Shown: positions 1-6,127 of the stretch, piece after piece | How positions within the stretch are numbered: the first letter of the stretch is position 1 | Layout: every line of letters starts with the position of its first letter | Virus record (IMG/VR): IMGVR_UViG_3300030101_001390 | Span: 1-24,474 of that record | Length of the DNA stretch: 24,474 nt | Strand: one strand, 5' to 3' | Source of the DNA: a virus | Position numbers and translations under genes: made by a program | Notes under the pieces: model-generated | What the model saw: only the letters and a program-made list of their open reading frames with translations | Database searches by the model: none | What the model was told of the DNA's origin: nothing

Positions 1-35
1 GTTTATAGAAAAACACCAAAATTGTAAAAAAAATC

Positions 36-64
36 TTGACAAATCGATAAATTGACGCTACCAT
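36..64 (+). promoter_or_regulatory. sigma70-type promoter of a candidate small RNA
   Basis: A perfect -35 box TTGACA lies at 36-41, followed by a 17-base spacer and a -10-like TACCAT at 59-64 (four of six consensus bases). No protein gene follows; a rho-independent terminator ends the possible transcript about 90 bases later. The -35 box and spacing are good and the -10 is mediocre. Confidence 0.45.
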
Positions 65-70
65 AGGTCC

Positions 71-161
71 AAGACCTGCCGGGGTAAACCCCCTGTCTAC
101 CTACAGGTCCCCCTAATGGTTCGCAAAATGGTCCCCGCTGGTCTTCCGGTGGGGCTTTTTT
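71..161 (+). ncRNA. candidate small structured RNA
   Basis: The stretch between the promoter at 36-64 and the terminator at 133-161 contains no credible reading frame but has strong secondary structure. GACCTG (73-78) pairs with CAGGTC (104-109) and encloses a GGGG/CCCC hairpin (81-84 with 89-92, TAAA loop). A single-stranded-looking segment at 110-132 contains GGTTCGCAAAAT, and the terminator hairpin closes the RNA. It does not fold as a tRNA and I do not recognise a known family. Seven bases (TGGTTCG, 117-123) are complementary to CGAACCA just before the start codon of the gene at 592-837, so control of early-gene translation is conceivable. That is inference only. Confidence 0.35.
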
Positions 162-188
162 GTTGGGTACCCTAGAGGTTCGCAAAAT
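118..188. repeat. two direct copies of GGTTCGCAAAAT
   Basis: The 12-mer GGTTCGCAAAAT occurs exactly at 118-129 and 177-188, with starts 59 bases apart, on either side of the rightward terminator. A chance pair of 12-mers this close is unlikely. The role is unknown: a protein-binding site, RNA element or origin iteron are all possible. Confidence 0.6.
133..161 (+). terminator. rho-independent terminator, rightward
   Basis: CCCCGCTGG (133-141) pairs with CCGGTGGGG (146-154) over nine pairs, two of them G-U, with a TCTT loop. C and six Ts (156-161) follow directly. On the opposite strand there is no comparable T-run, so it acts on rightward transcripts. Confidence 0.75.
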
Positions 189-534
189 ACCCTGTATGGA
201 TAACCTTAAAAATAGAAAAAATATGTCGGGATTGCATAGCAAATGGCAGGGGGGTGGGGTGTCCCTCGCGTACCCGCGCACAGCCAAATATTTTTATTAA
301 CATCGGTGAGGCCGTTGGTTCTGGTCGTATAACCTAGCGGCACCCATCCCCCGAACACACACTAACCCCTGCGAACATATGCGCACCCACATGCGCCCGT
401 GTAATTAATTTGTCATATTGTAAACTTTAGGGGGTGGCCTTTTGGTGGTAAAAATGCGCAGCAATTCCACACAATACACAACCCAAAACCACAAGGGATT
501 ACTGCCAGTTAGTCCGGATAAATACATGCCGGAC
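189..534. other. intergenic region without a recognisable gene
   Basis: I see no protein gene here; the long leftward frame over 3-287 runs through structured RNA and terminator sequence and looks spurious. Noted elements are a G-rich tract near 245-259, three copies of ATGCGC (379-384, 391-396, 454-459), an AT-rich patch near 287-300, and an inverted repeat GTCCGG/CCGGAC (512-517 with 529-534) next to the T-tract of the leftward terminator. Such a region could hold an origin or packaging signal, but nothing decides this. Confidence 0.4.
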
Positions 535-565
535 AAAAAAAGACCCCCACCGAATAGGCAGGGGT
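535..565 (-). terminator. rho-independent terminator of the leftward early operon
   Basis: Read on the minus strand, ACCCCTGCC (565-557) pairs with GGTGGGGGT (551-543) over nine pairs with two G-U, around a five-base loop. C and seven Ts (541-535) follow. It lies 27 bases beyond the last leftward gene and resembles the rightward terminator at 133-161 in design. Confidence 0.85.
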
Positions 566-591
566 AAGTCTAGGGAGGAAATGGTAAGGTG

Positions 592-837
592 TTATTCGCT
601 GCTATCTGGCTTGTAGGTAAGCTGCAGCCGCGCCACCGTTCGAGGGCTGTCGGTCGCGAATGTGTAGTGGTCGAAGCCGCACATACGCAAAAAGTCTTTT
701 AAACCTTTGAGCTGGAGTTCAAGGGCTTCAACCTGCCCAAGTATAACCGCCTGCTCTTGGGTAGTCATTACAACAAGCTTCTTTGCCTCGTCAGCATTGA
801 AAGTTTCATCGTTAATGTTAAGGGTTGATTTAATCAT
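592..837 (-). CDS. small hypothetical phage protein (81 aa)
   Basis: I do not recognise this 81-residue protein. It has a central stretch (about residues 24-50) rich in Gln, Glu and Leu that looks helical and possibly coiled-coil, and no Cys pair or membrane segment. It is the last gene of the leftward operon, just before the terminator at 535-565. The start is supported by a strong Shine-Dalgarno in GAAGGAACCGAACCA directly before ATG. This leader is almost identical to the one in front of the gene at 3352-3588. A hairpin at 864-887 precedes it. Its position suggests an early accessory function; the real role is unknown. Confidence 0.75.
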   Translation of the reverse strand: MIKSTLNINDETFNADEAKKLVVMTTQEQAVILGQVEALELQLKGLKDFLRMCGFDHYTFATDSPRTVARLQLTYKPDSSE

Positions 838-852
838 TGGTTCGGTTCCTTC
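838..852 (-). promoter_or_regulatory. shared ribosome-binding leader, copy 1
   Basis: The minus-strand sequence GAAGGAACCGAACCA immediately precedes the ATG at 837. It matches the leader at 3603-3589 in 14 of 15 bases and a shorter form at 1421-1410 (GAAGGGAACCGA). Identity beyond the Shine-Dalgarno core suggests a common translation signal or binding site. Confidence 0.6.
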
Positions 853-863
853 TTACAAGTTAA

Positions 864-887
864 TGGGGACAAGCTGCCCCGTCCCCA
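864..887 (-). promoter_or_regulatory. hairpin in the leader of the 81-aa gene
   Basis: TGGGGAC (864-870) and GTCCCCA (881-887) form a perfect seven-pair stem with a ten-base loop, about 27 bases upstream of the start codon at 837. No T-run follows on either strand, so it is not a terminator. It could be an RNA processing, stability or operator element. Confidence 0.45.
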
Positions 888-911
888 TCATTGTTATACT
901 AAGCTTTCGAG

Positions 912-1295
912 TTATGCAACAAGTTTATAAGCTGATTTGGCACCCTTACGAAAAACGGTTTCTATTTTGTAACCTTTTTCTCGCAAGGTCTTTATGCCCG
1001 TATAAACTGACCCAACAGTCATTCCAGTTTCACGAATAAGCGTGTCTTTGTTCACGGCATATGTGCGACTGTGTAGGCAACGGTAAAGCTTACCAAGCTT
1101 ACTGCCGGAATGAAAACCGCGCCGCTGCCGGACAGATTTCGCCGCATGGCGTGTTTTTTCCCCATTCTTATCCGCGAACAGTTCTTTGGATAATTGGGTT
1201 AAAACCTTTTGCCGCTCGTCCTGCCGATAGTATTCTTCAACACGGTCAGCTAAATAACGAAATTCTTCAATTAGATGGTTTGGAAGTGTACTCAT
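912..1295 (-). CDS. winged-helix DNA-binding protein, probable regulator
   Basis: This 127-residue protein is basic in the middle (about residues 43-73) and ends in what reads as a winged helix-turn-helix. Residues 83-110 contain TLIRETGMTVGSVYTGIKTL, with the turn around GMTV, followed by a short beta-like wing up to SAYKLVA at the C-terminus. The N-terminal 40 residues are acidic and helical, perhaps for dimerisation. It sits in the leftward early block between a membrane micro-ORF (1329-1409) and the gene at 592-837. A small hairpin (GGGC/GCCC, 1313-1322) precedes its start, with a weak purine-rich site AGAAAGAAA. It is probably a transcriptional regulator of phage or host genes; the target is unknown. 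Confidence 0.65.
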   Translation of the reverse strand: MSTLPNHLIEEFRYLADRVEEYYRQDERQKVLTQLSKELFADKNGEKTRHAAKSVRQRRGFHSGSKLGKLYRCLHSRTYAVNKDTLIRETGMTVGSVYTGIKTLREKGYKIETVFRKGAKSAYKLVA

Positions 1296-1328
1296 TGGTT
1301 TATTTCTTTCTGGGCAATGCCCGTTGGT

Positions 1329-1409
1329 TTACACAATAAAGACCGCGTATATTATTGTTATTATCAAAGCAACGGTCAAACTTCGATATATTACATATAA
1401 AGCTTCCAT
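1329..1409 (-). CDS. 26-residue single-span membrane peptide (candidate)
   Basis: ATG at 1409 opens a 26-codon frame ending at TAA (1331-1329). The peptide starts MEALYVIYRS and continues with about 16 mostly aliphatic residues to the C-terminus, so it would be a single membrane span with almost no soluble part. The ATG is preceded by GAAGGGAACCGA (1421-1410), the leader also seen before 837 and 3588, which is the main reason to believe it is translated. A -10-like TATAAT lies upstream on the minus strand (1441-1436) without a good -35. It might be a host-membrane effector; short size keeps confidence moderate. Confidence 0.45.
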   Translation of the reverse strand: MEALYVIYRSLTVALIITIIYAVFIV

Positions 1410-1463
1410 TCGGTTCCCTTCATATCACAAAGAAGATTATATAAATGAGCAACGTTTCGAGCA

Positions 1464-2471
1464 TCATGCCGCTGCCCGTTGTTCTGCCCATGTCCAGCAT
1501 GGCGACTCAATAACAGTCCGAACCATGTCATTTCGGGTTCGCTGGACATTGGCAACGTTCTGGGTTGTTCGTCCAGACTGGTAACCCTTGCCCGTTTTTG
1601 GGTCTGTCCACTCTTCGTTGGTATGAGTTGCCCAATGGGTCAAAGCATTATATGCCGCCCACATAGTCTGCCCCAATTCCTGCTTTTCCTTATCGAACAA
1701 GTAAAGCAAGTTGTTCATCAGGCGTTCATTAACTGGCTTTCCCTGCCCTGCCTCAACTGCTCGACTGGATTTGTAACAGATGGATTTAGCCAACAATTCG
1801 GCAAAGGCTTCATCAGTAAACTTGGCACCTGCCCACAAGTTCATCTTGTCGCGCTGCCCCGTCCACATTTCAAGGGAACCGCCGGCCTTACTAATAAGGG
1901 CATCGGGGGACAAGTTCTTCGTATGCTTTGCCTTTTGGTGATATGCCTTTTCACCACCAAACACTAGCGTATTACGGCACAAGTCACGATAGGCACCGGA
2001 AAACACTTGAAAAGACCATGACATGTCCACCGAATTGAAAACATCCATGCGGCAATTCACACGGTCGGTTGAATCCCCAACTGTGGTTTGTAGGTCATTA
2101 AAGTGGATTGTTCGATGCGCTCGCAGCCCGTCGTTATACACCCTGTCAATTACCTTTACATTCGACAAGGGTAAGTCGGTCTCTTGCAGCAATTCAGCCT
2201 GCCGCCGGAATAGTTTATCATGCGGAACCAAATTGTAAGTTCTGCCTATTGGCCTAGTGTTCAGGATTGCACCGGATGCGGTATTTTGTAGGGCTGAATA
2301 TTCTGGCATAGGTACTGGTTCGCACACCTCATATGGGTGTGTATCACGTGTTGTTATTGCCTCGATTGGCACCCTCTGGACAGAGCCGCGACGGGTAAAC
2401 AATTCGATGTTTGAAGGGTCGTTATGTTCAATAACGTTTAGGTCTGTGTTTACTTCTATTAAGTCGAACAT
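1464..2471 (-). CDS. DUF932 family phage/plasmid-like protein
   Basis: The 335-residue product matches my memory of the DUF932 (phage/plasmid-like TIGR03299) family, about the usual length. Family-like features are the early GRTYNLVPHDKLF segment (residues 77-88), the central NSVDMSWSFQVFSGAYRDLC (146-165) and the following RNTLVFGG, which corresponds to the family's conserved R-x2-C-x-N-x-L element. The function of the family is unsettled; it is common on phages and plasmids near replication and anti-host genes. I chose ATG 2471 because GAAAGGAAC lies just upstream. A longer in-frame start at 2546 would add 25 residues and lacks a visible ribosome-binding site. A hairpin at 2496-2512 precedes the leader. 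Confidence 0.8.
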   Translation of the reverse strand: MFDLIEVNTDLNVIEHNDPSNIELFTRRGSVQRVPIEAITTRDTHPYEVCEPVPMPEYSALQNTASGAILNTRPIGRTYNLVPHDKLFRRQAELLQETDLPLSNVKVIDRVYNDGLRAHRTIHFNDLQTTVGDSTDRVNCRMDVFNSVDMSWSFQVFSGAYRDLCRNTLVFGGEKAYHQKAKHTKNLSPDALISKAGGSLEMWTGQRDKMNLWAGAKFTDEAFAELLAKSICYKSSRAVEAGQGKPVNERLMNNLLYLFDKEKQELGQTMWAAYNALTHWATHTNEEWTDPKTGKGYQSGRTTQNVANVQRTRNDMVRTVIESPCWTWAEQRAAA

Positions 2472-2495
2472 ATCAATGTTCCTTTCGTTTTGGTT

Positions 2496-2512
2496 AACGG
2501 GACAACCCCGTT
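2496..2512 (-). promoter_or_regulatory. hairpin in the leader of the DUF932 gene
   Basis: AACGGG (2496-2501) pairs with CCCGTT (2507-2512) around a five-base loop, 25 bases before the ATG at 2471 and just upstream of the Shine-Dalgarno. It is placed like the hairpin at 864-887. There is no T-tract, so it is not a terminator. Confidence 0.4.
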
Positions 2513-2574
2513 GGACTGTTATTGCACCTGCTGCCAGATGCGTCAAGGTAATTCATTTTTTACCTTATTACATA

Positions 2575-2736
2575 CTAACACATGATTCTCGATAGTTGAC
2601 GTTGTGGGACAAAAAAAATGGATGCCGCCCCGCGACTCGCGACACCCGTTGCTAATACCGCACCCAGTCCCCCCCGAACCAATAAGGACACTGCAAGTAA
2701 CATACTAGCCCCAATAAAAAAGTTTAACGTGGGCAT
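2575..2736 (-). CDS. 53-residue hydrophobic micro-protein (candidate)
   Basis: ATG at 2736, five bases after the stop of the upstream gene (2741-2743), opens a 53-codon frame ending at TAG (2577-2575). Residues 5-20 (NFFIGASMLLAVSLLV) form one clear membrane segment. A glycine/alanine-rich second half follows, with a basic tail. It fills most of the 269-base gap between the HhH-like gene and the DUF932 gene, and its close spacing to the upstream gene fits the operon. The ribosome-binding site is weak (GGGAT about 14 bases upstream), so it may be non-coding spacer instead. Confidence 0.35.
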   Translation of the reverse strand: MPTLNFFIGASMLLAVSLLVRGGLGAVLATGVASRGAASIFFVPQRQLSRIMC

Positions 2737-2740
2737 TTTG

Positions 2741-3355
2741 TCATGTTATCCCATAACGGTCACGCCATACTCGCCACGTTATTGCCTGCAATTGGTAAGG
2801 CATTATCCCGGCATCGTTCGCAGCTTCCTTGTAAGCTTCCTGTAATGCCTTGTATTCACGCACCCCAATATTTGTTCGGTCGTCAGTTAATCCGATACGT
2901 TCATTATAAGCAATGTTTCGTGCGTGACCGTCTATAGTAACGTTGAACTCGCCCATAATGTCACAAAAGAACGACGTTATTTTTTGTCCCTTCAGCATAG
3001 CCTTTGCCCCATTGTAGGTTGGACGTTCTGCCAATATGCCCCAAGCCTTCTTTTTCATAGCGTGGTAAGTTGACACTTTTACGGAATCAATACCATCACC
3101 CCTGAGAAATGCACCGATTAAAGCATCGGCATTTTTAACGTTACGTTGCCATTTGTTATTTGGCGACAATGCAGAAATAACGGCCACCACGAGATAAACG
3201 CCTATCCCGTATTTATTGCCGATATCATACGCAGCATCGTAGGCCGCAGCATACCACGCCATGCCGCCTTGTATCTGTACTGGGTCGGCATCTAAATAGC
3301 AGTGGGTAATATTAGAGACTAGTTTTTTGTGAGCTAGTTTAGTTGGTCGTTTCAT
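2741..3355 (-). CDS. HhH-GPD (DNA glycosylase)-like phage protein
   Basis: This 204-residue protein carries the pattern of a helix-hairpin-helix DNA glycosylase-like domain. The segment GQKITSFFCDIMGEFNVTID (residues 123-142) followed by GHARNIAY and RIGL can be laid over the endonuclease III stretch that runs from its hairpin through VDTH to the next helix. In that alignment Asp142 of VTIDGHA takes the place of the catalytic aspartate. An earlier conserved-looking block is ISALSPNNKWQRN (60-72). No iron-sulphur cysteine cluster is present. Similar proteins occur in tailed phages without a known role. Base repair, modified-base handling or mere DNA binding are all possible. Its ATG overlaps the stop of the upstream gene by four bases (3352-3355), so the two are translationally coupled. 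Confidence 0.55.
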   Translation of the reverse strand: MKRPTKLAHKKLVSNITHCYLDADPVQIQGGMAWYAAAYDAAYDIGNKYGIGVYLVVAVISALSPNNKWQRNVKNADALIGAFLRGDGIDSVKVSTYHAMKKKAWGILAERPTYNGAKAMLKGQKITSFFCDIMGEFNVTIDGHARNIAYNERIGLTDDRTNIGVREYKALQEAYKEAANDAGIMPYQLQAITWRVWRDRYGIT

Positions 3356-3588
3356 CGTATTGTTTCCCCCGTATGAATCCAGACTGGCGCGTCGGTTTCA
3401 ATCCAAACTTTAGCACCACAAGATAAAGGTTTATTTGGGGAATATACCACCCGCGACAAACCGTCAATTTCCGCTGCATAGGTGTAGTGATTGCTTTTAC
3501 TGGTCTTAACAGTAATTACGGGTTCGTGCGTTCCATTCTTAGCATTAGCACGAATCACGTGTTGGTTTATATGTATTCGTTTTTTCAT
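3352..3588 (-). CDS. small conserved phage protein (78 aa), function unknown
   Basis: The 78-residue protein begins with a His/Asn/Arg-rich strand (IHINQHVIRANAKNG) and ends with SPNKPLSCGAKVWIETDAPV. From memory this pattern recurs in a small protein family found in many tailed phages, with no known function. It looks all-beta, with a single Cys. The start is marked by the leader GAAGGAACCGAACCG (3603-3589), nearly the same as before the 592-837 gene. It overlaps the next gene by ATGA, and the two are probably translated together. Confidence 0.7.
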   Translation of the reverse strand: MKKRIHINQHVIRANAKNGTHEPVITVKTSKSNHYTYAAEIDGLSRVVYSPNKPLSCGAKVWIETDAPVWIHTGETIR

Positions 3589-3603
3589 CGGTTCGGTTCC
3601 TTC
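3589..3603 (-). promoter_or_regulatory. shared ribosome-binding leader, copy 2
   Basis: GAAGGAACCGAACCG directly precedes the ATG at 3588 and differs in one base from the leader at 852-838. A second AAGGAATCCAACC lies about 25 bases further upstream, so the element appears duplicated here. Confidence 0.55.
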
Positions 3604-3625
3604 GTTGGTTTAGGTTGGATTCCTT

Positions 3626-3835
3626 TTAATGGTAGTTTTTGGCGCGGTCAAGTGTTTTTAATTTATCGCGCAATCTTTCTAAATAGCATTTTAGACAATA
3701 AAAAAACTTGTCCATGACAACAACGTTAGCGAGTTCCCAACAAATGCAGCATTTATGTTCCGGATTTAACGTGGGGTTTTTGTCTCGTTTTAACGTGAGA
3801 GATTTGTCAAGTTTTTTGCGTGGGGGATTTGTCAT
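3626..3835 (-). CDS. small four-cysteine zinc-ribbon protein
   Basis: The 69-residue protein has Cys29-x2-Cys32 (within HKCCICWE) and Cys47-x2-Cys50 (YCLKCY), the spacing of a small zinc ribbon. A lysine-rich N-terminus and C-terminus fit nucleic-acid or protein binding. The N-terminal arm has two eight-residue repeats, DKSLTLKR and DKNPTLNP, encoded by imperfect 24-25-base DNA repeats (3767-3833). The start overlaps the upstream stop as ATGA (3832-3835). The specific partner is unknown. Confidence 0.65.
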   Translation of the reverse strand: MTNPPRKKLDKSLTLKRDKNPTLNPEHKCCICWELANVVVMDKFFYCLKCYLERLRDKLKTLDRAKNYH

Positions 3836-4035
3836 TGTTTGTCACTCCAAAATTCATACCACGCATCCGCTAACATTTCGGCGTATTCGGTTTTGTCACG
3901 TACTCCCACCCAATCGCGGTAGGGTTCCATTCCTTGCAAGAACTCTCCAAATTGTTCGCAGCCACCAATGACCTCGTTTGCCTTACACCAAAAGTCTTCT
4001 TCTAGCTGGATTGCCCAGTCGCTCATCTTACTCAT
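3832..4035 (-). CDS. small acidic hypothetical protein (67 aa)
   Basis: I do not recognise this protein. It is acidic and rich in aromatic residues (DFW, YRDW, WYEFW), and looks helical and soluble. The start at 4035 (MSKMSDW) is chosen because GGAG lies eight bases upstream and because this start overlaps the stop of the preceding small gene by eight bases. An in-frame extension to 4095 would run through that gene (4028-4195) in another frame and has no ribosome-binding site. Its stop overlaps the ATG of the zinc-ribbon gene. Confidence 0.65.
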   Translation of the reverse strand: MSKMSDWAIQLEEDFWCKANEVIGGCEQFGEFLQGMEPYRDWVGVRDKTEYAEMLADAWYEFWSDKQ

Positions 4036-4195
4036 TGACTTGCTCCACTGTAATGTCCGGTAAGTATTCGCCGTCGTATTCTTTCCAGTGTCCATCCCAA
4101 TTCATAGCTATTATTCTAGCTTGATTGGCGTTCTCTGCTTCGAGAGTACACACCTCAGTTACGAGATAGCTTCGGGCTACTTCAAATTTTGGCAT
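4028..4195 (-). CDS. 55-residue small phage protein
   Basis: ATG 4195 overlaps the TGA of the upstream gene as TGATG, and the 55-codon frame ends at TAA (4030-4028) inside the start region of the next gene. Both junctions are typical of coupled phage genes. The sequence begins MPKFEVARSYLVTEV and then has an alternating Glu/Ala/Asn stretch and a WDGHWKEYDGEYLPDI segment. This is vaguely like the small beta-rich DpnD/PcfM-type domains often seen in phages, but the likeness is weak. Function unknown. Confidence 0.6.
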   Translation of the reverse strand: MPKFEVARSYLVTEVCTLEAENANQARIIAMNWDGHWKEYDGEYLPDITVEQVNE

Positions 4196-4482
4196 CACCC
4201 ATTCTCCCGCACATCTAGGTTAAATTCATAGCGCAGCTTATCCCTTGCCTCTGCCAATTCTTGCAGGTCATAGGCAGTAACAGCCTTGATGCCACCTAAG
4301 TCTGGATACATGGCGGTGTTTAATATCTCATCTAGCAATTGGTACGCATTGATAACAGCAGCTCGTTGGTCAAGAGACAGCTTGGCTACACGGTCACGGC
4401 GTTGGATACGTTCCTTCTCACGCTTCGATGCCCAATAAGCAATGCGTTCGTCTTGTGTCATATTCTCTAGTTTCTTCGCCAT
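4195..4482 (-). CDS. helical hypothetical protein (95 aa)
   Basis: The 95-residue protein starts MAKKLENMTQDERIAYWASK and is highly charged and helical throughout, with no cysteines or membrane segment. I do not recognise a family. The start at 4482 is preceded by AGGAGA at a good distance; the longer frame from 4530 would cross the promoter-like sequence at 4517-4543. It is probably the first gene of a transcription unit beginning after the terminator at 4547-4580. Its stop is coupled to the next ATG. Confidence 0.7.
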   Translation of the reverse strand: MAKKLENMTQDERIAYWASKREKERIQRRDRVAKLSLDQRAAVINAYQLLDEILNTAMYPDLGGIKAVTAYDLQELAEARDKLRYEFNLDVRENG

Positions 4483-4516
4483 TTGGTTTCTCCTATCTGG
4501 CAGTTGATTAGTAACC

Positions 4517-4543
4517 GATATAGAAAACAACCCCGTCTGTCAA
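4517..4543 (-). promoter_or_regulatory. internal leftward promoter
   Basis: On the minus strand a perfect TTGACA (4543-4538) is followed after 15 bases by TATATC (4522-4517), four of six -10 bases. It lies between the terminator at 4547-4580 and the gene at 4195-4482, so it could restart transcription of the downstream early genes. The spacing is a little short. Confidence 0.5.
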
Positions 4544-4546
4544 CAC

Positions 4547-4580
4547 AAAAAGAAACGGGACTAGAAATTAATCCAGCCCC
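4547..4580 (-). terminator. internal leftward terminator
   Basis: On the minus strand GGGGCTGGA (4580-4572) pairs with TCTAGTCCC (4565-4557) over nine pairs including two G-U, around a six-base loop. GTTTCTTTTT (4556-4547) follows. A second hairpin without a good T-run lies just before it (4608-4626). It separates the first three leftward genes from the rest. Confidence 0.65.
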
Positions 4581-4640
4581 GCTCTTCAACCAACCAACGA
4601 AAGTACAAGGGGTAACCACTCCCCCTGTTCAACCTTACTA

Positions 4641-4898
4641 CTAAGCTACTTCGTAAGGTGTCCTCAGTTTTACCAAAACCTGTTTATGTCTGTCAACCCA
4701 CAAACGACATTCATTTTCACTTTTTCCAACGTAAATTGTGACAAGACGCAAGTAATCTACACAGTCTTTTTTCTTCACCGCTTCCCTGTTTGTCTCGCCA
4801 ATGCGAACAGATGATGCTGGTGTATTGACTGCCCACCTATCGTCCCACTGTCTGCGAACTATTTCTAGCTCAAGTTTTGGGGTTTTCAACGATTCCAT
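4641..4898 (-). CDS. hypothetical protein (85 aa)
   Basis: I do not recognise this 85-residue basic protein. It has two cysteines far apart, no membrane segment and a mixed beta/alpha look (LELEIVRRQW near the start, YLRLVTIYVG in the middle). ATG 4898 is preferred over 4904 because GAGG then sits six bases upstream. It overlaps the ribbon-helix-helix gene upstream by 29 bases in another frame and is followed by the terminator at 4547-4580. Confidence 0.65.
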   Translation of the reverse strand: MESLKTPKLELEIVRRQWDDRWAVNTPASSVRIGETNREAVKKKDCVDYLRLVTIYVGKSENECRLWVDRHKQVLVKLRTPYEVA

Positions 4899-5082
4899 GT
4901 TCATCCTCGTAAGATTCTAAGTAAACGTCTATTGCATCCCGAATCAGGTCAGCTACTGCAACCTGTTCGAGAGAACTCTTTTGCATGTGATGTGCCATGT
5001 ATGCAAGCTTATCATACTGTTGTTCCTTCATCAGTAAATTATATGTCTTGGTAGGTTCAAGTATCTTGTTTGGTCTTGGCAT
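4870..5082 (-). CDS. ribbon-helix-helix regulator
   Basis: The 70-residue protein fits the ribbon-helix-helix (Arc/CopG-like) plan. A short strand segment (TKTYNLLMKE, residues 11-20) is followed by a helix (QQYDKLAYMA), a turn, and a second helix (VADLIRDAIDVYLE, about 43-56) ending in an acidic tail. Such proteins bind DNA as dimers and usually regulate transcription. It lies at the head of the leftward operon next to the divergent control region at 5207-5332, so autoregulation or an early-to-middle switch is plausible. AAGAAGGAAC upstream is a good ribosome-binding site. Its start overlaps the small gene at 5057-5206. Confidence 0.6.
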   Translation of the reverse strand: MPRPNKILEPTKTYNLLMKEQQYDKLAYMAHHMQKSSLEQVAVADLIRDAIDVYLESYEDEHGIVENPKT

Positions 5083-5206
5083 CGTTAAGTTCCTTCTTTG
5101 CCAGTTTATCTAACTTGTCTTTCCTCTTACTTGGGACAACCTGTTTCTGATACTTCTTGTCCCTTAATAGTTTAGCTATAGGGTTGATTTTATTAGGTAT
5201 CTTCAT
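5057..5206 (-). CDS. 49-residue basic protein resembling the N-terminal half of ArfA
   Basis: ATG 5206 opens 49 codons ending at TGA (5059-5057), overlapping the next gene by 26 bases. The protein is very lysine-rich. Residues 8-23, NPIAKLLRDKKYQKQV, align with NAIEALLHDPLFRQRV of Escherichia coli ArfA as I remember it: the Asn, the Leu-Leu pair, Asp, an aromatic residue and Val agree. ArfA rescues stalled ribosomes by recruiting release factor 2 and placing a basic tail in the mRNA channel. Here the GKGSY motif is missing and replaced by a lysine-rich tail. Similar tiny proteins are frequent in phages and usually left unannotated. It would be the first product of the leftward operon. The ribosome-binding site is weak. 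Confidence 0.6.
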   Translation of the reverse strand: MKIPNKINPIAKLLRDKKYQKQVVPSKRKDKLDKLAKKELNDAKTKQDT

Positions 5207-5332: not shown

Positions 5333-6127
5333 ATGACAGTTTGGCTAAAAGATTACGTTACTGATTTGTCAATCGCACCGGAAGGTCGTCTACGGATGGA
5401 CTGTCCTGCTTGTGGCAAAAAAAATACCTTCAGTGTTTCTGACACTGGCGGTGAACGTCTATGGTTTTGCTTTCATGCAGACTGTGGGGTTCGTGGACGA
5501 ACAGGCTTTAGGATACGCAAAGACACTGGTATCCACCCCCTGTTACGCACTAAGTCATTGGAAACAAACAATAACTCAAATATACCATTCGAGCTGCCTG
5601 ACACGTTTGTTGCCCTGTCCCGCGAACCTCGTGCCGAATCCTATGTCAAACGGGTAAATGCCTACGATGCGTACCTTGCTGGTCGCGTCGATATTCGTTA
5701 CGACTTTCGTATGAACCGTGTCGTCTACCTGATAAAGGATGGTAGGCAGGTGGTTGATGCTGCTGGTCGTAGTTTAGATAACATCAAACCTAAATGGTGG
5801 AGATATGGAAAATCCGGTAATCCTTTCGTTTGCGGTGCCAGCCGTGTCGGAGTTCTTCTGGAAGACTGTGCTAGTGCTTGTAGTGTATCTAGTTTTCTTT
5901 CGGGGGTAGCCCTGTTAGGAACTAACTTACAGGACAGTCACTTGCCCTGTTTAAGAAAATATGATAGGCTTCTTGTAGCCTTAGACAAGGATGCAACCAA
6001 GAAAGCATTGGAATTGGTTCGCAGACTACAGGCCATCAGGCCAACAAGTTTAGTTGTTTTAAACAAAGATGTGAAAGATATGACAGATGACGAACGAAAA
6101 CGAACCTTCGAAAGATATATCCCTTGA
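5333..6127 (+). CDS. DNA primase (zinc-binding and TOPRIM domains)
   Basis: This 264-residue protein corresponds to the primase half of the T7 gp4 type. A zinc-binding domain is seen at Cys24-x2-Cys27 and Cys46-x4-Cys51 (CPAC and CFHADC). A TOPRIM-like catalytic domain follows, with Glu177 in VGVLLED and Asp218-x-Asp220 in LLVALDKDA as metal-binding residues. It makes RNA primers for lagging-strand synthesis. It is shorter than bacterial DnaG and, unlike T7 gp4, is separate from the helicase, whose gene overlaps its end by 41 bases. AGGAG seven bases before ATG 5333 supports the start. It is the first gene of the rightward operon. Confidence 0.88.
   Translation: MTVWLKDYVTDLSIAPEGRLRMDCPACGKKNTFSVSDTGGERLWFCFHADCGVRGRTGFRIRKDTGIHPLLRTKSLETNNNSNIPFELPDTFVALSREPRAESYVKRVNAYDAYLAGRVDIRYDFRMNRVVYLIKDGRQVVDAAGRSLDNIKPKWWRYGKSGNPFVCGASRVGVLLEDCASACSVSSFLSGVALLGTNLQDSHLPCLRKYDRLLVALDKDATKKALELVRRLQAIRPTSLVVLNKDVKDMTDDERKRTFERYIP

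Follow-up and report, generated by a model that had tools for sequence, protein, structure and literature searches.

Positions 36-161 of a 24,474-nucleotide viral DNA (IMG/VR record IMGVR_UViG_3300030101_001390, positions 1 to 24,474; hereafter the window) very probably hold a genuine small RNA gene, as judged by comparison with related phage sequences. In full, we read the site as a phage gene that stands on its own and encodes a non-coding RNA of about 90 nucleotides that would act in trans, and we assign this reading a probability of roughly 55%. A free-standing small RNA gene had been proposed for this site by an earlier, sequence-only reading, and the proposal gains support from a promoter and position that are kept among relatives, from the terminators, from sequence conservation, from the lack of coding capacity, and from RNA-like variation in the terminator stem. 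By sequence and comparison, the unit comprises a sigma-70-type promoter, a dyad that spans the expected start, a 5′ element without variation, a CCCCUAAnGGUUCGCAAA segment that is short, conserved, and mostly unpaired, and an intrinsic terminator (Table 1).

Table 1. Features of the candidate unit and its surroundings in the window
Feature	Positions	Strand	Remarks
Sigma-70-type promoter, TTGACA-17-TACCAT	36-64	+	10 of 12 consensus matches; mean identity 0.87 with six relatives
Dyad AGGTC-CAA-GACCT across expected start site, possible operator	65-77	.	Both bases change in 4 of 5 pairs
Inferred small RNA	71-161	+	Start by spacing from -10 box, end at T run; matched by model R1
5′ element CCTGCCGGGGTAAACCCC	75-92	+	Identity 1.00 with six relatives; common to a late-mRNA leader in relatives
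Direct repeat copy 1, CCCTAATGGTTCGCAAAAT, candidate seed	111-129	+	Mostly unpaired in centroid fold; identity 0.96
Intrinsic terminator, 9-pair hairpin (133-154) + C + T6	133-161	+	Identity 0.89 over 131-161
Direct repeat copy 2, past terminator	170-188	+	
Conserved non-coding block, cis element outside the RNA	189-275	.	AT-rich stretch, TTGCATAGCAA, GGGGGGTGGGG; 29-row alignment
AlphaR8/MmgR (Rfam suhB, RF00519)-like RNA, second candidate	528-593	-	3′ end of leftward early operon

Phage identity and genomic setting

The window is a fragment of an HMO-2011-type marine phage. Its DNA polymerase is 48% identical to the enzyme of Pelagibacter phage HTVC033P and approximately 36-42% identical to those of HMO-2011 and of roseophages of HMO-2011 type. 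DNA searches against 50,697 phage records returned no match to the window, and thus no cultured relative by DNA. The available text on HMO-2011-type phages describes them as dominant and widespread in the sea, reports no lysogeny genes in subgroups IV-X, and contains no mention of sRNA or small RNA (PMC9038755).

The early genes (592-5206) run leftward and include a DUF932 protein (1464-2546) and an HTH-like protein of 127 amino acids (912-1295). A non-coding stretch (1-590) adjoins the end of this operon, and relatives reveal that the terminase genes, which are also leftward, sit beyond position 1. The candidate site in relatives therefore lies between the end of the early operon and the terminase genes. 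The unit does adjoin the early operon, as had been claimed, but it is rightward and so points opposite to the genes on both sides, and the first rightward gene 3′ of it begins only at 5333. In relatives such as L001, a leftward promoter (TTGACA-17-CATAAT) stands back to back with the candidate.

Conservation of the unit among relatives

The promoter described from the window alone is confirmed, with a perfect TTGACA at 36-41, a spacer of 17 nucleotides, and TACCAT at 59-64. Within positions 1-3000, terminator-like matches are enriched (9 found versus 3.0 expected) and promoter-like matches are not (4 found versus 5.4 expected from shuffled sequence). The RNA at 71-161 folds moderately better than its shuffled versions (z of -2.06, with 4 of 200 shuffles as good). 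Because the promoter-like matches are not enriched and the fold exceeds shuffles only moderately, the single sequence is no more than suggestive.

We then turned to 31 loci that had been fetched solely by similarity to the neighboring DUF932 protein, without reference to the candidate. In all 25 relatives where the region could be delimited, TTGACA-17-TA.... is the best promoter on the candidate's strand (10 or 11 of 12 matches), although many of these loci are closely related and the counts represent non-independent events. The other six loci (L014, L015, L019, L021, L022, and L031), in which the 81-amino-acid protein was unmatched, were not delimited; a scan for promoter plus element finds the promoter in five of them, with L015 absent from that scan. 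Two further pattern scans, made independently, yielded 94 and 17 stretches, and the 66 distinct promoter-plus-element sequences comprise 55 of the small-RNA type and 11 protein-gene leaders.

Identities with six relatives (Table 1, where 0.96 refers to 111-130) remain high across the unit and reach 0.92 at 170-270, compared to 0.66 in 301-527 and values of 0.66-0.78 in the adjoining coding frame of 81 amino acids. By this sequence measure, 36-161 is more conserved than the adjoining coding sequence. This conservation across relatives indicates that the pairing of promoter and terminator is more than chance.

The view that nothing protein-coding lies between promoter and terminator also stands, as no conserved frame runs through 71-161 in the six relatives. 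A 19-codon ATG frame at position 116 lacks its ATG in four of the six and loses phase in four of the six, and a 94-amino-acid minus-strand frame (3-287) is broken in five, remaining intact in L002. Protein-coding readings of either strand were rejected since the frames break in most relatives.

For a covariance search, which had been suggested as a check, alignment A1 was assembled from 33 of the 39 distinct complete GGTTCGC-type sequences. It omits L003 (a tandem copy of its neighbor type) and five loci (L031, L034, L085, L119, and L122) for which no T run was found close by under the selection rule. Covariance model R1, based on these 33 relatives, recovers the unit at the same spot in all 12 relatives outside the training set (L005, L007, L011, L012, L014, L016, L021, L022, L025, L029, L031, and L034), with E values from 7e-8 to 0.012. 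No match to HTVC033P was listed for R1, and HMO-2011 gave only a chance-level match (9.7 bits, E of 3). No Rfam match above the gathering score was obtained for the plus strand of 36-161. Hence, the candidate would represent a new small RNA family, not in Rfam, of a known kind (phage small RNAs).

Variation in the terminator and in the RNA body

The terminator hairpin, CCCCGCTGG-TCTT-CCGGTGGGG at 133-154, has nine pairs, seven of which are G-C. The nine-pair terminator with six Ts that had been noticed is thus present, with C155 placed between the stem and the T run (156-161). Counting the window, 24 distinct syntenic segments were compared, and 20 of them contain a stem with five or more G-C pairs and Ts directly after it, versus 40 of 480 shuffles. 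Among the 24, L031 has no recognizable terminator and L011, L014, and L029 are below threshold.

In the 33 sequences of A1, 99.3% of the cells of the terminator stem are paired. Changes in the stem are mostly one-sided, exchanging G-C, G-U, and A-U pairs, and a two-sided change is found in one pair in a single cell. Such variation is what a plus-strand RNA stem would be expected to show. The stem includes 65 G-U or U-G cells, which the complementary strand would show as C-A mismatches, and therefore the plus strand is taken to be the RNA. This pattern suggests that the terminator stem has been selected as plus-strand RNA. The fold energy of the alignment is -21.56, compared to a mean of -2.93 for column shuffles.

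The earlier description of the RNA as structured is firm for this hairpin only. The 5′ half carries no consistent covarying fold, and single-sequence folds vary among relatives. RNAalifold places a GGGG-UAAA-CCCC hairpin in the 5′ element, but the element is almost invariant and covariation neither supports nor refutes this hairpin. Across A1, fixed short segments are joined by linkers that vary in length and sequence.

At the dyad (65-77), 11 of the 16 distinct 17-mers have arms of at least 4, whereas shuffles reach this in 533 of 3,200 cases. We infer that it is a DNA operator because a transcript start near position 71 would cut the dyad.

Proposed function of the candidate RNA

The candidate RNA most likely serves as a base-pairing or decoy RNA. 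Host RNA polymerase would make the RNA, and a regulator that binds the dyad could set its timing. The terminated RNA would then act in trans by base pairing to mRNAs of the host or the phage through its C-rich and GGUUCGCAAA segment, or alternatively it might sequester a factor. U-tailed terminators contribute to stability and Hfq binding in other bacterial small RNAs, and the one seen here may do the same. For phage targets, the best predicted duplexes with start regions were no better than those of shuffled RNA (window, L001, and G001), and the top match in G002 was the RNA's own antisense locus. GGUUCGC is not kept in group-2 relatives and therefore is not a universal seed.

The sequence CCTGCCGGG(N)GTAAACCC of the 5′ element also follows a second promoter (TTGAC.-TATAAG) in relatives, where it forms the leader of a protein gene directly downstream of what we take, from gene order, to be a capsid-type gene. 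Both forms, small RNA and late leader, occur in G001 and L081, with a variant in G002. The late protein-gene leaders at G001:C1:53049+ and G002:C1:7613- have TTGACA-17-TATAAG, with a GGGGGCA...TGCCCCC hairpin upstream and the 5′ element downstream. In the genome collection, no host sequence was found that has the 5′ element after a TTGAC box.

Before the next gene, the late leader carries ACGGTTCGC in 10 of 43 listed loci and ATGTTCGC in 11 more. These stretches have the same sense as the GGUUCGC of the RNA. They are shared rather than complementary, and therefore we retained a decoy reading, in which the RNA mimics the late leader: its 5′ end bears CCUGCCGGGGUAAACCC, which begins the late mRNA downstream of the capsid-type gene. 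We consider this proposal quite doubtful. If true, the RNA may compete with the late leader for a bound factor, or it might instead pair with that leader via the self-complementary GGGGU-AA-ACCCC, and late gene expression would be coupled to a separate small RNA gene. A separate observation is that the leftward late leader of L005, L007, L008, L010-L014, L016, L021, and L022 contains a near-invariant GTTGTGGGGCTAGATAAATCTAGCACATCCCGACA stretch, which includes an obvious GCTAGAT/ATCTAGC hairpin.

Sequences beyond the terminator and alternative readings

Direct repeats flank the terminator (111-129 and 170-188) and co-vary between phage groups, with GGTTCGCAAAAT in one and CACGTCGGTTT in the other; this group difference involves L011, L014, and L029. 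On the minus strand of L003 (3600-3792), the unit of repeat plus terminator (58 bases) is duplicated in tandem, as if by recombination between direct repeats, although an assembly error is possible. An attachment site formed by the GGTTCGCAAAAT repeats was considered and dropped, since no integrase scored above the cut-off in G000-G003 and no exact GGTTCGCAAAATGGTCCCCG occurs in the genome collection. The sole sub-threshold integrase match, in G002, falls inside a 687-amino-acid frame.

That the repeats on either side of the terminator change together would fit a cis-acting attenuator, in which the rightward transcript normally ends at 161 and antitermination permits read-through of 189-275, against the early operon. 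The promoter of the lambda late operon, with its short terminated transcript, provides a precedent of this type. Divergent promoters also occupy this place in HTVC033P, whose rightward promoter precedes the core of the conserved block with no plus-strand terminator found, which also favors an attenuator. However, with no rightward gene before 5333, this arrangement would need about 4.6 kb of antisense read-through of early genes, and neither a gene nor a site for antitermination was identified. We therefore regard it as unlikely.

Conservation extends past the terminator (170-270), and therefore part of it may serve DNA-level reasons. The block at 170-275, with its AT-rich stretch, TTGCATAGCAA dyad, and GGGGGGTGGGGTG..CCCTCGC, is kept in relatives whose small RNA differs, and its core is also found in HTVC033P (L137 from 3785). 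This block is possibly an origin, a packaging site, or a regulatory site. The entire region might accordingly be a hub of operators, or a replication origin or packaging site beside the terminase genes, with the RNA as a by-product or an aid to DNA opening, a role that has been proposed for transcription from the lambda pO promoter. The conservation of 170-270, which equals that of the RNA segment and persists in distant relatives, the dyads at 65-77 and around 233, and the proximity of the terminase genes are all in keeping with this idea. Nevertheless, we judge it improbable because it leaves unexplained both the strand-specific tolerance of G-U pairs in the terminator stem and the invariant 5′ element, and because the cumulative GC skew of G001 and G002 turns at changes in gene direction rather than at this site.

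Finally, a functionless promoter look-alike that happens to precede a stem with Ts, as the unremarkable number of promoter-like matches in the window alone might allow, is highly improbable, given that all 25 delimited relatives keep the promoter in this position and that conservation exceeds that of the coding neighbors.

A second RNA candidate at the end of the early operon

On the minus strand, 528-593 matches RF00519 with 41.0 bits, which is borderline relative to the gathering score of 41. The gathering score is reached in 2 of 16 other loci (L001 and L006, both above it), and matches below it occur at the same place in 8 of 10 further loci. A UUUCCUCCCU sequence, the 10-mer that the available text of PMC12559287 assigns to the alphaR8 family, precedes a terminator at 565-543. 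No promoter-like match was listed close upstream, and the RNA may belong to the 3′ end of the early mRNA. Its sequence suggests a relative, carried by the phage, of a family of host regulators.

Comparison with known systems

HMO-2011-type phages are a large group whose intergenic regions have apparently gone unstudied. Our literature text searches turned up no small RNA described for these phages and did not find the motif in print. A conserved small RNA gene and an alphaR8-like RNA 370 bases away would offer an entry point to RNA-level control in this group.

The 6S RNA of the lambda late promoter arises from a strong promoter with a terminator directly after it, an arrangement that the candidate shares. 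In contrast to lambda, the candidate has no same-direction downstream genes, and no Q-like protein was identified; PHROG matches of Q-like type fall inside the DNA polymerase.

The plus-strand RNA resembles alphaR8/MmgR, as described in the available text of PMC12559287, in having a C-rich unpaired stretch before its terminator. However, RNA 71-161 contains no UUUCCUCCCU and gave no match to the suhB covariance model, and its assignment to alphaR8/MmgR (RF00519) was rejected on these grounds.

Lambda OOP RNA, transcribed from pO, is likewise a short RNA that runs against the direction of its neighbors in a regulatory region. According to the portion of PMC12197685 available, OOP is antisense to cII, whereas RNA 71-161 overlaps no opposite-strand gene. 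The same portion describes phage-encoded small RNAs with their own promoter and terminator, namely PreS/LPR1 of lambda and VpdS of VP882 (PMC12197685). No sequence relation to these RNAs is apparent, and Rfam gave no plus-strand match above the gathering score at 36-161; the candidate resembles PreS/LPR1 and VpdS in being a short unit for a non-coding RNA within the genome of a phage.
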